Source: Moraxellaceae bacterium (GTDB taxonomy: Bacteria > Pseudomonadota > Gammaproteobacteria > Pseudomonadales > Ketobacteraceae). From it: a stretch of DNA of 12,636 nt. Position 1 is the first letter of the stretch, and every line of letters begins with the position of its first letter. The position numbers were made by a program, and so were the translations under genes. The notes beneath the pieces were generated by a model. The model was not told where the DNA came from, did no database searches, and saw nothing but the letters and a program-made list of their open reading frames with translations. The stretch covers positions 4,914 to 17,549 of the forward strand of contig NVVG01000006.1 of NCBI GenBank assembly GCA_002402125.1. Reading direction: 5' to 3'. Positions 4,457 to 9,043 of this stretch are shown here, piece after piece.

Positions 4457-5395
4457 ATGAATATAGCCCGGGTTGACTTGAATTTACTGGTGTATCTCGA
4501 CGTACTGCTGCGCGAGCAAAACGTCACGCGAGCGGCTGAACAGCTTGGTATTACCCAGCCCGCCATGAGTAACGGATTACGTCGGCTAAGGGCTTTGTTC
4601 GATGACCCGATCTTAGTTCGCTCCTCATCGGGTATGAAACCCACCGAAAGAGCGTTAGAGGTTCAACCCAAAGTACGCCAAATCCTGTCGGAAACCCAAT
4701 TTCTGTTAGAACCAAAACAAGACTTTAAACCGCTGTCCAGTAAACGGGTATTTCGCATCATGGCGTCGGACTATGCCGAAGCAACGTTATTTCCTCGACT
4801 GATAAAACATATTCGCAGTGAAGCGCCCAATATTATTCTCGACGTGTTAACCCCCAGTGATGTGAGTTATAAAGATATGGAGCAGGGGCGAGTGGATATG
4901 GCGATTAATCGCTTTGATGAGATACCGCAGTCGTTTCATCAAACCACGGTATGGACCGACAGTTTTTCCTGTTTGATGAATAAAGAGAACCCCGCGGCAA
5001 AAAACTTTGGGTTAAAAACCTATTTAGAAGCACAACATGTTTGGGTAAGTAAAACCGGCATGGGGGTAGGGTTTGGTGTGAATCCGGAGAAATCTGGAGG
5101 CCTCGGTTGGATAGACCAAGCATTGTCTCGCATTGGTCAGAAACGAAAAATCTCGGTCTTTACTCGGCACTATCAAATGCCTGGGTTACTGGTTCAAGAT
5201 AATGATTTGATTGCAACCTTGCCGACGAAAGTGGCAGTAATGCAAGCAGAACGATTTCAGTTGGAGCTTAGGGATCCACCGTATTATATTCCTGAATTTG
5301 AATTAAAAATGGCCTGGAGTCCGATGTTGCATCACAACCTTGCACATCAATGGTTAAGAAGGTTAATCGGTTATACCGTGGGGAAATTGAGGTGA
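4457..5395 (+). CDS. LysR-family transcriptional regulator
   Basis: A 312-residue LysR-type regulator, a usual length for the family. The N-terminal winged helix-turn-helix is clear: VDLNLLVYLDVLLRE at 6-20, TRAAEQLGITQPAMSNGLRR at 24-43 and LRALFDDPILVR at 44-55, followed by KPTERALEV. From about residue 88 it reads as a periplasmic-binding-protein-like effector domain (FRIMASDYAEATLFPRLIKH and onward). The N-terminus resembles the NodD/NahR/LeuO side of the family more than the CysB side. The ATG at 4457 is preceded by AAGG at 10 nt. It lies only 40 bp before the arginine kinase gene in the same direction, so the two could share a transcript; it may control that gene, itself, or unlinked targets. 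The effector cannot be read from sequence. Confidence 0.95.
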   Translation: MNIARVDLNLLVYLDVLLREQNVTRAAEQLGITQPAMSNGLRRLRALFDDPILVRSSSGMKPTERALEVQPKVRQILSETQFLLEPKQDFKPLSSKRVFRIMASDYAEATLFPRLIKHIRSEAPNIILDVLTPSDVSYKDMEQGRVDMAINRFDEIPQSFHQTTVWTDSFSCLMNKENPAAKNFGLKTYLEAQHVWVSKTGMGVGFGVNPEKSGGLGWIDQALSRIGQKRKISVFTRHYQMPGLLVQDNDLIATLPTKVAVMQAERFQLELRDPPYYIPEFELKMAWSPMLHHNLAHQWLRRLIGYTVGKLR

Positions 5396-5435
5396 CCGTT
5401 TCTGTATTGCGCATATTAGACAATTCGGGGCGGCC

Positions 5436-6446
5436 ATGACTGCGCTTGCAAAAAAATACCTCACGGCTGAAGTGCTTGGCAAGCTTGCGCAAGTCCGGGC
5501 TGAGTGCGGTTTTGGTATCGAAGATATTGTACGCTCCGGTGTCGATAACCCTGATAGCAGTATTGGCGCTTATGCCGGTGATGAAGACTGCTACGGTAAA
5601 TTTGCCCCGCTGTTTGATCCGATTATCAATGATTATCATGGTTATGCCGCCGATGCCTCGCACCATTCCAATTTTGATATTAATAGCCTAATGAATATGG
5701 AGGATATGGATCCTAGTGGCGAGGTTATTATTTCAACTAGGATTCGAGTAGCCAGAAATATCAAAGGTTTCCCTTTCCCGCCGGCGCTGTCGACTGATGA
5801 TCGAGCGGTCATCGAAGAAAAAGTAGTTGCTGCTCTTAATAACCTTCAAGGGGAATTGTCCGGCACCTATTATCCGCTGGTTGAAATGCGTGAGGAAACT
5901 CGAATTCAACTCACAGAAGATCACTTTCTTTTTAAAAAAGGCGATCGTTTTTTAGAGTCGGCAGGTGTTAACGGCGACTGGCCTGCAAGTCGTGGAATTT
6001 TCCACTCTGATGATAAGCAGTTTCTGGTTTGGGTTAACGAAGAAGATGAGTTAAGAATTATATCCATGCAACCGGGTGGCGATCTCAAACAGGTCTTTGT
6101 GCGCCTGGCGCAAGCGATTGCTGCTATCGAGTCAGAGATAACCTTTGCCTACAATGATCACTTGGGTTATTTGACCAGTTGTCCGACGAATCTAGGCACA
6201 GCGATGAGAGCTAGTGTTCACGTTAAGCTGCCCCTGTTAGGCAAAACGCAACAATTCCAACAAACCTGCGCAACCTTGGGATTGTCGGTGCGTGGTATTC
6301 ATGGTGAGCACTCTGAGTCAGAAGGAGGTGTTTATGATATATCGAATAAACAGCGGCTGGGCATTAGTGAGGTGGAATGTATCAAACGTTTATATGCTGG
6401 CATAAAGGATTTGCTTGCGAAGGAGCGCCAACTAGGCACAATCTAA
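5436..6446 (+). CDS. Arginine kinase (ATP:guanido phosphotransferase)
   Basis: Reversibly transfers phosphate between ATP and L-arginine, making phosphoarginine as an energy buffer in the cytosol. The 336 residues hold the N-terminal helical domain (about 1-85) and the catalytic domain (about 90-330). Using Limulus arginine kinase numbering from memory, the nucleotide-binding arginines R124, R126, R229, R280 and R309 correspond to R102, R104, R207, R258 and R286. The guanidino-binding E225, C271 and E314 correspond to E203, C249 (in CPTNLGT) and E291 (GEHSE). The specificity loop S63, V65, Y68 appears as S41, I43, Y46, and the D62-R193 pair as D40-R171. E314 is diagnostic of arginine rather than creatine kinase, which has Val there. 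It is about 20 residues shorter than animal enzymes, mainly at the N-terminus. The upstream GGGGCGG is a weak ribosome site. It follows a LysR gene by 40 bp. Bacterial examples are rare and generally attributed to lateral transfer from eukaryotes. Confidence 0.95.
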   Translation: MTALAKKYLTAEVLGKLAQVRAECGFGIEDIVRSGVDNPDSSIGAYAGDEDCYGKFAPLFDPIINDYHGYAADASHHSNFDINSLMNMEDMDPSGEVIISTRIRVARNIKGFPFPPALSTDDRAVIEEKVVAALNNLQGELSGTYYPLVEMREETRIQLTEDHFLFKKGDRFLESAGVNGDWPASRGIFHSDDKQFLVWVNEEDELRIISMQPGGDLKQVFVRLAQAIAAIESEITFAYNDHLGYLTSCPTNLGTAMRASVHVKLPLLGKTQQFQQTCATLGLSVRGIHGEHSESEGGVYDISNKQRLGISEVECIKRLYAGIKDLLAKERQLGTI

Positions 6447-6470
6447 AAAGCCTAATTTAACAAGTGGCGT

Positions 6471-6510
6471 AATAAAAAAGGCCGAACATTCATGTTCGGC
6501 CTTTTTTATT
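6471..6510. terminator. Bidirectional rho-independent terminator, perfect 40-bp palindrome
   Basis: Arms of 19 bp (6471-6489 and 6492-6510) pair without a mismatch around the central TC. The core GGCCGAACAT/ATGTTCGGCC is flanked by six A on the left and six T on the right, giving a U tract on either strand. It lies 24 bp after the arginine kinase stop and 15 bp after the glcB stop, between converging genes, so it should end both transcripts. Confidence 0.93.
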
Positions 6511-6525
6511 TACGGGCATACGATT

Positions 6526-8700
6526 TTACTGACCGTACTTGGCTTTCGCTTCTTTTCTTTTGGCGTGTAACACAGGCTCAGTATAACCGTTTGGCTGTTC
6601 TTTGCCTTTTAATACAAGATCAAGTGCTGCTTGGAATGCTACGTTGTCATCAAAGTTAGGTGCCATGTTGCGATAGTCTGCATCGCCGGCATTTTGTTGG
6701 TCAACAATGGCAGCCATGCGTTGCATGGTTTCAACAATTTGAGACTCAGTACAAATGTCGTGGCGTAACCAGTTAGCAATATGCTGGCTGGAAATACGCA
6801 GCGTAGCGCGATCTTCCATTAAACCAACGTCATTGATGTCTGGTACTTTAGAACAACCTACGCCGTTATCAATCCAGCGCACCACGTAACCTAAAATACC
6901 CTGTACGTTATTATCCAATTCTTTTTGGATTTCTTCTGCGCTGAGAGTGGCATCACCCAGCAGTGGAATAGTCAGAATGTTGTCTAGGCTAGCGCGTGCT
7001 CGAGAAGCAAGCTCTTGTTGCTTTTTGGCAACACTGATTTTGTGATAGTGCATAACGTGCAGAGTGGCTGCGGTAGGGGATGGGACCCACGCACAGTTTG
7101 CACCGGCTTCAGGGTGGCCAATTTTCACCTTAAGCATTTCCGCCATTTGATCAGGAATAGGCCACATGCCTTTACCGATTTGGGCTTTACCGCTTAATCC
7201 GGTTTCAACACCAATGTCCACGTTCCAGTCTTCGTAGGATTGCATCCAAGGCTGTTGCTTCATTTGTGTTTTACGAATCATCGGGCCTGCTTCCATGCTG
7301 GTGTGGATCTCATCACCGGTACGGTCGAGGAAACCTGTGTTAATGAAAATAACCCGGTTCTTGGCGGCTCGAATACACTCTTTTAAGTTGATGGTAGTGC
7401 GGCGTTCTTCATCCATAATACCAATCTTAAGGGTGTTGCGACTTAAGCCAAGCGCATCTTCGATACGATCAAACAGTTCGTTGGCAAAGGCGACTTCTTC
7501 TGGGCCATGCATCTTAGGTTTTACAATGTAGATGCTACCTTCGCGGCTGTTCTTGAATTTAGAATCGCCAATGATGTCATGCTTAGAAATAAGGCTGGTG
7601 ATCATGCCGTCAAGAATGCCCTCTGGCACTTCTTCGCCATTGGCCATTAGGACGGCATCGTTAGTCATCAAGTGACCAACATTACGCACAAGCAACATGC
7701 TGCGGCCAGGTAGACTAATTGTCTCGCCATTGGGTGCGGTATAGGAGCGATCTGGATTCATGGTGCGGGTAAAGGATTTGCCGCCTTTGGTGATGGTTTC
7801 AGAAAGCGACCCTTTGATGAGGCCTAACCAGTTGCGGTAAACAGTGGTCTTATCTGCGGCATCAACCGCAGCAATGGAGTCTTCACAATCTTGGATAGTG
7901 GTGATGGCGGATTCCATCAATACGTCTTTAACACCTGCTGGGTGATCTTTTCCGACAGTGTGTGACGGATCGATTTGGATTTCAGCATGGAGGTTGTTGT
8001 GCTTGAGTAACACGGCTGTTAGAACGGTGTCCTGCAGATAACCGGCAAACTGAGCGGTGTTTGCTAAGGTTGTGGTCTCACCATTTTGCAGGGTGATTTC
8101 AAGTGCTTCACCGTTGACCGCGTAAGCTGATACGTCACGGTGGCTTCCCGTAGCCAGTGGGGCGATATCATCAAGTACACCACCCGCATATTGGATGACT
8201 TTGGCACCACGCGCAGGATTATAGCTTGAGCCTTTTTCAGCACCACCATCATCAGATATAACGTCGGTACCATATAACGCATCATATAGGCTTCCCCAGC
8301 GAGCATTTGCTGCGTTTAGGGCGTAACGGGCGTTCATTACCGGAACCACTAGCTGAGGGCCTGCGATGGTGGCTATTTCTGGATCGACACGGTCGGTGTC
8401 TATTTGGAAGTCGTCGCCTTCCGGCAGTAAGTAGCCAATTTCAGCTAGAAATTGCTTGTACTCGTCAAAATTGTGAGGCTGGCCAGCACGCGCTTGGTGC
8501 CATGTATCAATTTGCGCTTGCAAGTTATCGCGCTTTTCCAATAACGCCTTATTCTTAGGGGCTAGGTCGTTAAGGATGTTCTCAAACGATGCCCAAAATG
8601 CGTCGACGTCGATACCTGTGCCAGGAAGAATGTCGTTGGCTACTAGGTTGTGTAGGACGGTAGCAATTTGCAAGCCGCCTTGTTGAATTCTGTCAGTCAT
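6526..8700 (-). CDS. glcB: Malate synthase G
   Basis: Condenses glyoxylate with acetyl-CoA to give malate, allowing growth on acetate, glycolate or glyoxylate; cytosolic and Mg-dependent. With the start at 8700 the protein is 724 residues, against 723 in E. coli. Residues match the E. coli G-isoform: R339 in LVRNVGHLM (substrate-binding R338), E431 in GIMDEERRT and D459 in FLDRTGDE (likely Mg ligands), C616 in GVGCSKVPD and the catalytic base D630 in [12 protein letters not shown]. The frame stays open 29 codons upstream to 8787, but the ATG at 8700 has GAGG 8 nt before it, begins with MTDRIQQGG as expected of the family, and restores family length. It is single-gene, with its own candidate promoter and terminator. 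No isocitrate lyase or glc genes are in the window. Confidence 0.97.
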
Positions 8701-9043
8701 GGCTGAAACCTCAATACTAAAACTATACTCAAGCTGCACCCAATGGGCGAGATTCCGAAAGGATAGTTGGTGCGTGTTAATTTTCACTCGAGGTTAGTTA
8801 AAACGATCACTAACCCACGGGCGTGGATGATGCGTTTTTCTCGATACGGTGTCAAATCCTAAGCTCGTGACTGAACGGTCTAACGCAGAAACATTGGTTT
8901 CAGGTGTTAATTTCGAATTTGTCGTCAGAATTAATTGCAGGAGCAGAGTTTGGGGCTGAGGTGCTTGTTATCCATTGGTGTAATGCGGTAAAGATTAATT
9001 AGGCGATCGATTAAATACGGTGAATATTTGCTCAGTTATTGGG
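8701..9043. other. 343-bp intergenic region upstream of glcB
   Basis: No coding sequence is supported here. It contains the glcB ribosome site (GAGG, minus strand, 8709-8712) and one good promoter candidate, listed separately. I see no hairpin with a U tract that would end the upstream PLD-like gene, so readthrough into glcB cannot be excluded. No repeat or RNA structure stood out. Confidence 0.6.
8827..8855 (-). promoter_or_regulatory. Candidate sigma70 promoter for glcB
   Basis: On the minus strand a perfect -35 box TTGACA (8850-8855) is followed after 17 nt by CATCAT (8827-8832), a 4/6 match to the -10 consensus. Transcription would begin near 8820, giving a leader of about 120 nt before the glcB ATG. 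The leader length leaves room for control, but no operator was recognised. Confidence 0.45.

Follow-up and report, generated by a model that had tools for sequence, protein, structure and literature searches.

Arginine kinases (AKs) are energy-buffering enzymes familiar chiefly from animals, but bacterial ones are already in print for Desulfotalea psychrophila, Myxococcus xanthus, Sulfurovum and Moritella sp. PE36 (named in the part of the review PMC6429109 consulted here). Other papers, in the parts consulted, cite the studies on Desulfotalea, on Myxococcus and on 'bacterial arginine kinases'. With bacterial AKs already published, the gene analysed here is a further member of the group. It lies in a stretch of 12,636 nucleotides (the window) corresponding to positions 4914–17549 of contig C60 in a 4.62-Mb draft genome (302 contigs, 87.1% complete, 2.68% contamination). 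We consider it very probable that this gene encodes a cytosolic L-arginine kinase (EC 2.7.3.3) that is functional and belongs to a bacterial phosphagen-kinase lineage, and that it was acquired from another bacterium and inserted between genes for a LysR-family regulator and malate synthase G (glcB). Among the matches listed from open-licence PMC papers, no title or abstract placed an AK beside glcB.

The gene, its product and its neighbours

The AK gene (5436–6446, forward strand) runs from an ATG to a TAA without internal stops and encodes a protein of 336 residues. The phosphagen-kinase N-terminal domain (Pfam PF02807, ATP-gua_PtransN) is found at residues 4–65 (E 3.7e-21) and the catalytic ATP:guanido phosphotransferase domain (PF00217, ATP-gua_Ptrans) at residues 126–332 (E 2.2e-77), both far above cut-off, and the description of a complete AK gene in an earlier, sequence-only reading is therefore borne out. 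The PF00217 model matched the 87.1%-complete source draft once, at this gene. When the PDB was searched with phmmer, the top single-domain match was the shrimp (Litopenaeus vannamei) AK 4bhl (372 bits, residues 3–332), and among the 49 distinct chains found, the five named protein-arginine kinase ranked last. An AlphaFold model built on a 54-row alignment (mean pLDDT 89.4, pTM 0.89) predicts an AK fold. Its 20 best PDB matches in Foldseek are all AKs (TMq 0.85–0.89, identity 47–51%), headed by the double-domain AK of Anthopleura and followed by 1sd0, 1p52, 1bg0 and 1p50, which we take to be Limulus AK, and then by the shrimp enzyme. The model is weak at residues 161–180, a stretch which includes R171 (block pLDDT 62 and 55).

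Upstream of the AK gene, and on the same strand, is a gene for a LysR-family regulator (4457–5395) whose stop codon is separated from the AK start by 40 bases. The two are possibly co-transcribed and, by position only, the regulator is a candidate for controlling the AK. Downstream, glcB (6526–8787) lies on the reverse strand and converges with the AK gene. Between them, within 6471–6510, lies a perfect inverted repeat of 19 nt bordered by runs of A and T, which is probably a two-way terminator; a consensus scan reported no terminator, probably since the T run forms part of the stem. The further neighbours in the window are two Hsp70-like genes (the first, at 1–1476, recognised by eye only), a DUF7931 gene, a RoxA-like JmjC gene and purB. 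A search with a flanking Hsp70-like protein returned three matches above 70% identity besides its own, one of them from Gammaproteobacteria bacterium 42_54_T18 (75%), and this supports the assignment to a gammaproteobacterium. A chromosomal location is supported, within a draft assembly, by the family-wide presence of LysR and glcB. Codon use in the AK gene is native, scoring −1.126 where the 35 other ORFs of the contig average −1.173 (sd 0.059), with a GC3 of 0.429 where they have 0.471 (sd 0.030). It shows no sign of alien composition, and so lateral gain is argued below from distribution and genomic slot alone.

Residues shared with McsB and residues that separate the two

Residue equivalences were numbered by shrimp AK 4bhl in an alignment of 107 rows (105 non-McsB and two McsB). 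Every residue named in the sequence-only reading is present in the window AK: the nucleotide-binding arginines R102, R104, R207, R258 and R286 (equivalent to R124, R126, R229, R280 and R309), the glutamates E203 and E291 (E225 and E314), the reactive cysteine C249 (C271) and the inter-domain pair D40–R171 (D62–R193). The arginines, glutamates and cysteine are invariant in 105/105 non-McsB rows, and both McsB rows carry the same eight positions as well as H185 and T273. Because the McsB rows share this invariant set, the main evidence of the earlier reading fits any active guanidino kinase; most of the residues that it listed are common to both McsB rows and do not alone identify an AK.

Other features do make the distinction. 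Within the non-McsB rows D62 is kept in 97/105, R193 in 98/105, and G66 and Y68 of the specificity loop in 100/105 each, whereas the two McsB rows are gapped at D62, the loop and R193 and have Met/Gly at H284/H315. The window AK contains the arginine-type guanidine specificity loop S41-S42-I43-G44-x-Y46. The markers on the AK side that are absent from the McsB rows are the N-terminal domain, this loop, the D40–R171 pair and H262, and in the aligned sequences the first three show the window protein to be an AK. The case separates those residues that tell AK from McsB in bacterial annotation from those that do not. Because no NCBIfam model reaches its cut-off on the window AK, an automated pipeline may name it 'protein-arginine kinase', the label that several of its relatives already carry in their JGI names.

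An identity as McsB, the protein-arginine kinase that marks proteins for Clp degradation, could draw on the common catalytic domain and its shared arginines, glutamates and cysteine, and on the five NCBIfam protein-arginine-kinase models which match within residues 77–333. However, those models score 91–181 bits against cut-offs of 381–679 (180.7 against 385 for the best of them), and the phosphagen N-terminal domain and the gapped or substituted positions of the McsB rows point the other way. No McsA, CtsR or ClpC was found among the seven window proteins scanned with Pfam and NCBIfam, whereas a Bacillus record has mcsB flanked by mcsA and clpC. McsB was rejected on domains, model cut-offs and the residues missing from the McsB rows, and we give it next to no chance of being correct: as judged from sequence and predicted model, ORF 5436–6446 is an AK and not McsB. 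It is also quite unlikely that the enzyme is a phosphagen kinase with another guanidine (agmatine, taurocyamine or similar) as its main substrate. Multi-substrate phosphagen kinases are known (PMC6429109, in the part consulted) and, compared with shrimp AK, the window loop has Gly64 replaced by Ser and Val65 by Ile; roles for Gly64, Val65 and Tyr68, as for Glu225 and Cys271, are given in the consulted part of PMC12387690. With Ser in place of Gly64, the substrate specificity is not certain from sequence. Nevertheless, the loop follows those of AKs in both length and residues, the first taurocyamine kinase domain of Schistosoma is without the motif in the alignment, and Ser at this position (window residue 42) is found in one AK domain of Anthopleura and in 57/105 non-McsB rows.

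Distribution, phylogeny and the variable slot

Among 38 relatives searched, the AK is present in one, the window's own genome; it is absent from four of four congeners (one 84% complete) and from ten of ten other family members (one only 54% complete). Evenly drawn and partly overlapping samples, own genome included, gave AKs in 2/390 for the order (the other being 38% identical), 3/369 for the class (55% and 43%) and 5/398 matches for the phylum, one of which extends over 72 residues (E 6.2e-4) and was not counted as an AK. Six AK-like genes elsewhere in these samples are 33–55% identical to the window AK. The best 120 of 6781 protein-database matches include, besides the protein itself, 75 of single-domain length (<400 aa), with the highest identities being 75, 71, 70 and 68%. 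Ten related loci, six titled Campylobacterota (phylum partly from the tree), turned up in a single scan of the genomes of bacteria and archaea. The earlier statement that there are only scattered bacterial cases was an understatement. Across 17 AK loci (the window included) there is no conserved neighbourhood: AK alone is common to all, and each of the other shared gene families joins two or three loci. As several of the loci span only ~4 kb, this negative result carries little weight.

Carriage by phages or plasmids was considered and rejected. Two scans seeking short peptide patterns found no relatives in viral contigs. Nine records of a phage collection match the AK, with at most 77% of the query covered (residues 75–333 in the widest match), which is the McsB pattern. 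Matches were found in 21 plasmid records; among the 20 listed, 17 are annotated protein arginine kinase, two are without an annotated feature and one, of Candidatus Bandiella, is described below. The 'phosphagen kinase' of a Vibrio jumbo phage, an ORF of 720 bases, owes its name to a superfamily match (PMC7765460, in the part consulted).

Several further proteins were observed in these searches. Plasmid NZ_CP110821.1 of Candidatus Bandiella woodruffii, a Rickettsiales symbiont of the ciliate Euplotes, encodes a divergent AK of 365 aa (L061:3845–4942; 41% identical over residues 25–336), annotated 'hypothetical protein' and near transposase genes. Its hydrophobic N-terminus looks export-signal-like by eye, and the protein is possibly secreted and active on the host's pool. 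L013, L064 and L065, from the window's order and phylum, are more divergent phosphagen-kinase-like proteins (38–43% identical) with 'SMRVRVGRNL' and 'CP[ST]NLGT' motifs and perhaps constitute a second bacterial phosphagen-kinase group. An AK-like match of 33% identity (L066), in a 1.3-Mb genome listed as 100% complete (G1046), has one TAG inside according to the search, and a 401-aa open frame was read there. Four proteins of 446–507 aa (P0009, P0012, P0028 and P0083; 50–53% identical) start inside one AK domain. In the first three a whole second AK domain follows, grouping near Campylobacterota AKs, which suggests the existence of tandem-domain AKs in bacteria.

Single-domain rows for the trees came from the best 120 of 6781 protein matches. 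A quick tree comprised 105 rows (the 107 aligned minus two fragments), and the AU test and a careful tree comprised 77, with the divergent or partial L010, L013, L015 and L061, the two McsB and 22 near-duplicates (by eye) also dropped. No AK of a ciliate, kinetoplastid or choanoflagellate was entered by name, and the Desulfotalea, Myxococcus, Sulfurovum and Moritella sequences were not included. Nine rows were counted as eukaryotic, including P0016 and P0115 on account of their source label 'merc', which we take to denote eukaryotes. In the careful tree the window AK belongs to a 6-row set (support 100/99) inside a 19-row set (99/96), with eukaryotic rows in neither; one row of the larger set is named Desulfocapsaceae, and the five nearest to the window AK are P0002, P0003, P0007, P0008 and P0034. 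Constraining the window AK with the nine eukaryotic rows was 79 log-likelihood units worse (quick tree), and the clade was rejected (p-AU 0.004). No animal source is thus indicated, and the sequences support a bacterial immediate source.

The eukaryotic rows fall on one side of a branch in the quick tree. The careful tree does not recover this split (0% of 200 bootstrap trees), as AKs of the Campylobacterota type are placed next to the eukaryotic rows, at a weak support of 36. Rooting the quick tree with McsB placed the eukaryotes among the other rows, with a very long outgroup branch (3.72), and the careful tree leaves that part unsettled. We raise as a conjecture, more doubtful than not, that phosphagen kinases are at root bacterial and were passed from phylum to phylum as a lone gene independent of its neighbours, with the eukaryotic (animal) AKs descending from bacteria of a line close to the Campylobacterota one. 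If true, the animal-to-bacterium story would be reversed and the PhoD-or-AK slot described below would represent one such recent move. The older direction of transfer between bacteria and eukaryotes is also left open by the review PMC6429109, in the part consulted.

LysR and glcB orthologues each occur once in 14/15 family genomes (own included), the single miss for both being the 54%-complete genome. The gap between them (window 5395–6526), with LysR as its left edge and glcB as its right, is a slot whose content varies within the family: a PhoD phosphatase gene, a large P-loop ORF, the AK or no gene. In four of four congeners the ORF adjoining LysR (865–1180 aa) has PhoD matches and, by eye, a twin-arginine-like start; one of these ORFs was given a full Pfam scan. 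Contig breaks leave LysR and glcB on two contigs in genome G003 and cut glcB in G002. No PhoD match was found in the window's genome, whereas each congener has 3 to 6, some of which are pieces of one gene. Eight genomes of two other genera have a gap of ~2.8–3.1 kb with a large ORF (808–898 aa) and a P-loop-like motif in each; the two scanned match AAA models, one of them with a weak MalT-TPR match below cut-off. In genome G005, which has no slot gene, the LysR and glcB matches lie 96 bases apart. The slot gene points towards LysR in all twelve genomes that have one, whereas the AK points away.

Because the AK is absent from relatives and the slot has other contents in them, it was most likely gained laterally, and to this extent the earlier proposal of lateral acquisition stands. 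We infer the direction, gain rather than loss, and gain with replacement of the slot gene is the simplest account. It is quite improbable that the AK is ancestral, retained in this genome but lost from every relative sampled. Native codon usage and the AK-like genes in a handful of further genomes from the order, class and phylum would fit such a history, but those six genes are 33–55% identical and the three entered in the tree fall away from the window AK, while the nearer kin are the database proteins at 68–75% identity (among the best 120 of 6781) and many parallel losses would be needed. An assembly artefact or contaminant DNA, for which one might cite the fragmented draft, its measured contamination and the absence of the gene from the four congeners searched, is very improbable. 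The AK is inside its contig (10,349–11,359 of 49,140), the genes on either side of it each occur once in 14 family genomes, its codon use is host-like, and the protein database lists the identical protein on two contigs, which may or may not be independent. Furthermore, a contaminant contig is unlikely because both neighbours, LysR and glcB, are 87–93% identical to those of congeners. Lateral gain from another bacterium remains our preferred reading, and the locus provides a clear case of probable phosphagen-kinase gain by a bacterium in which the same site is seen with other contents in relatives.

Proposed function and comparison with known kinases

In the proposed scheme, the AK gene would have arrived from another bacterium into the LysR–glcB slot, where congeners carry a PhoD phosphatase gene. 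Its product would catalyse the reaction MgATP + L-arginine = MgADP + phosphoarginine + H+, such that high-energy phosphate would be stored as phosphoarginine under plentiful ATP and returned on energy, pH or starvation stress. From the sequence and the predicted model we infer this activity, substrate and physiology, and phosphoarginine may then act as an energy and phosphate buffer in this bacterium. When equipped with an AK system, both E. coli and yeast withstood low-pH stress better (PMC6429109, in the part consulted).

The window AK has in common with McsB the catalytic domain, the eight catalytic positions, H185 and T273, whereas McsB is without the N-terminal domain, the D62–R193 pair, the specificity loop and H284, all of which the window AK has, and possesses its own C-terminal dimerization domain (PMC12467219, in the part consulted). 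The animal AKs of Limulus, Litopenaeus and Anthopleura resemble it in predicted fold, domains and catalytic residues (47–51% identity, best 20 structures), although its N-terminus is 22 residues shorter than that of shrimp AK and the AU test separates it from the eukaryotic rows. The AKs of Desulfotalea, Myxococcus, Sulfurovum and Moritella come from other organisms and other genomic sites; all are bacterial AKs, and that of Moritella, a gammaproteobacterium, is gammaproteobacterial like the enzyme of the window.
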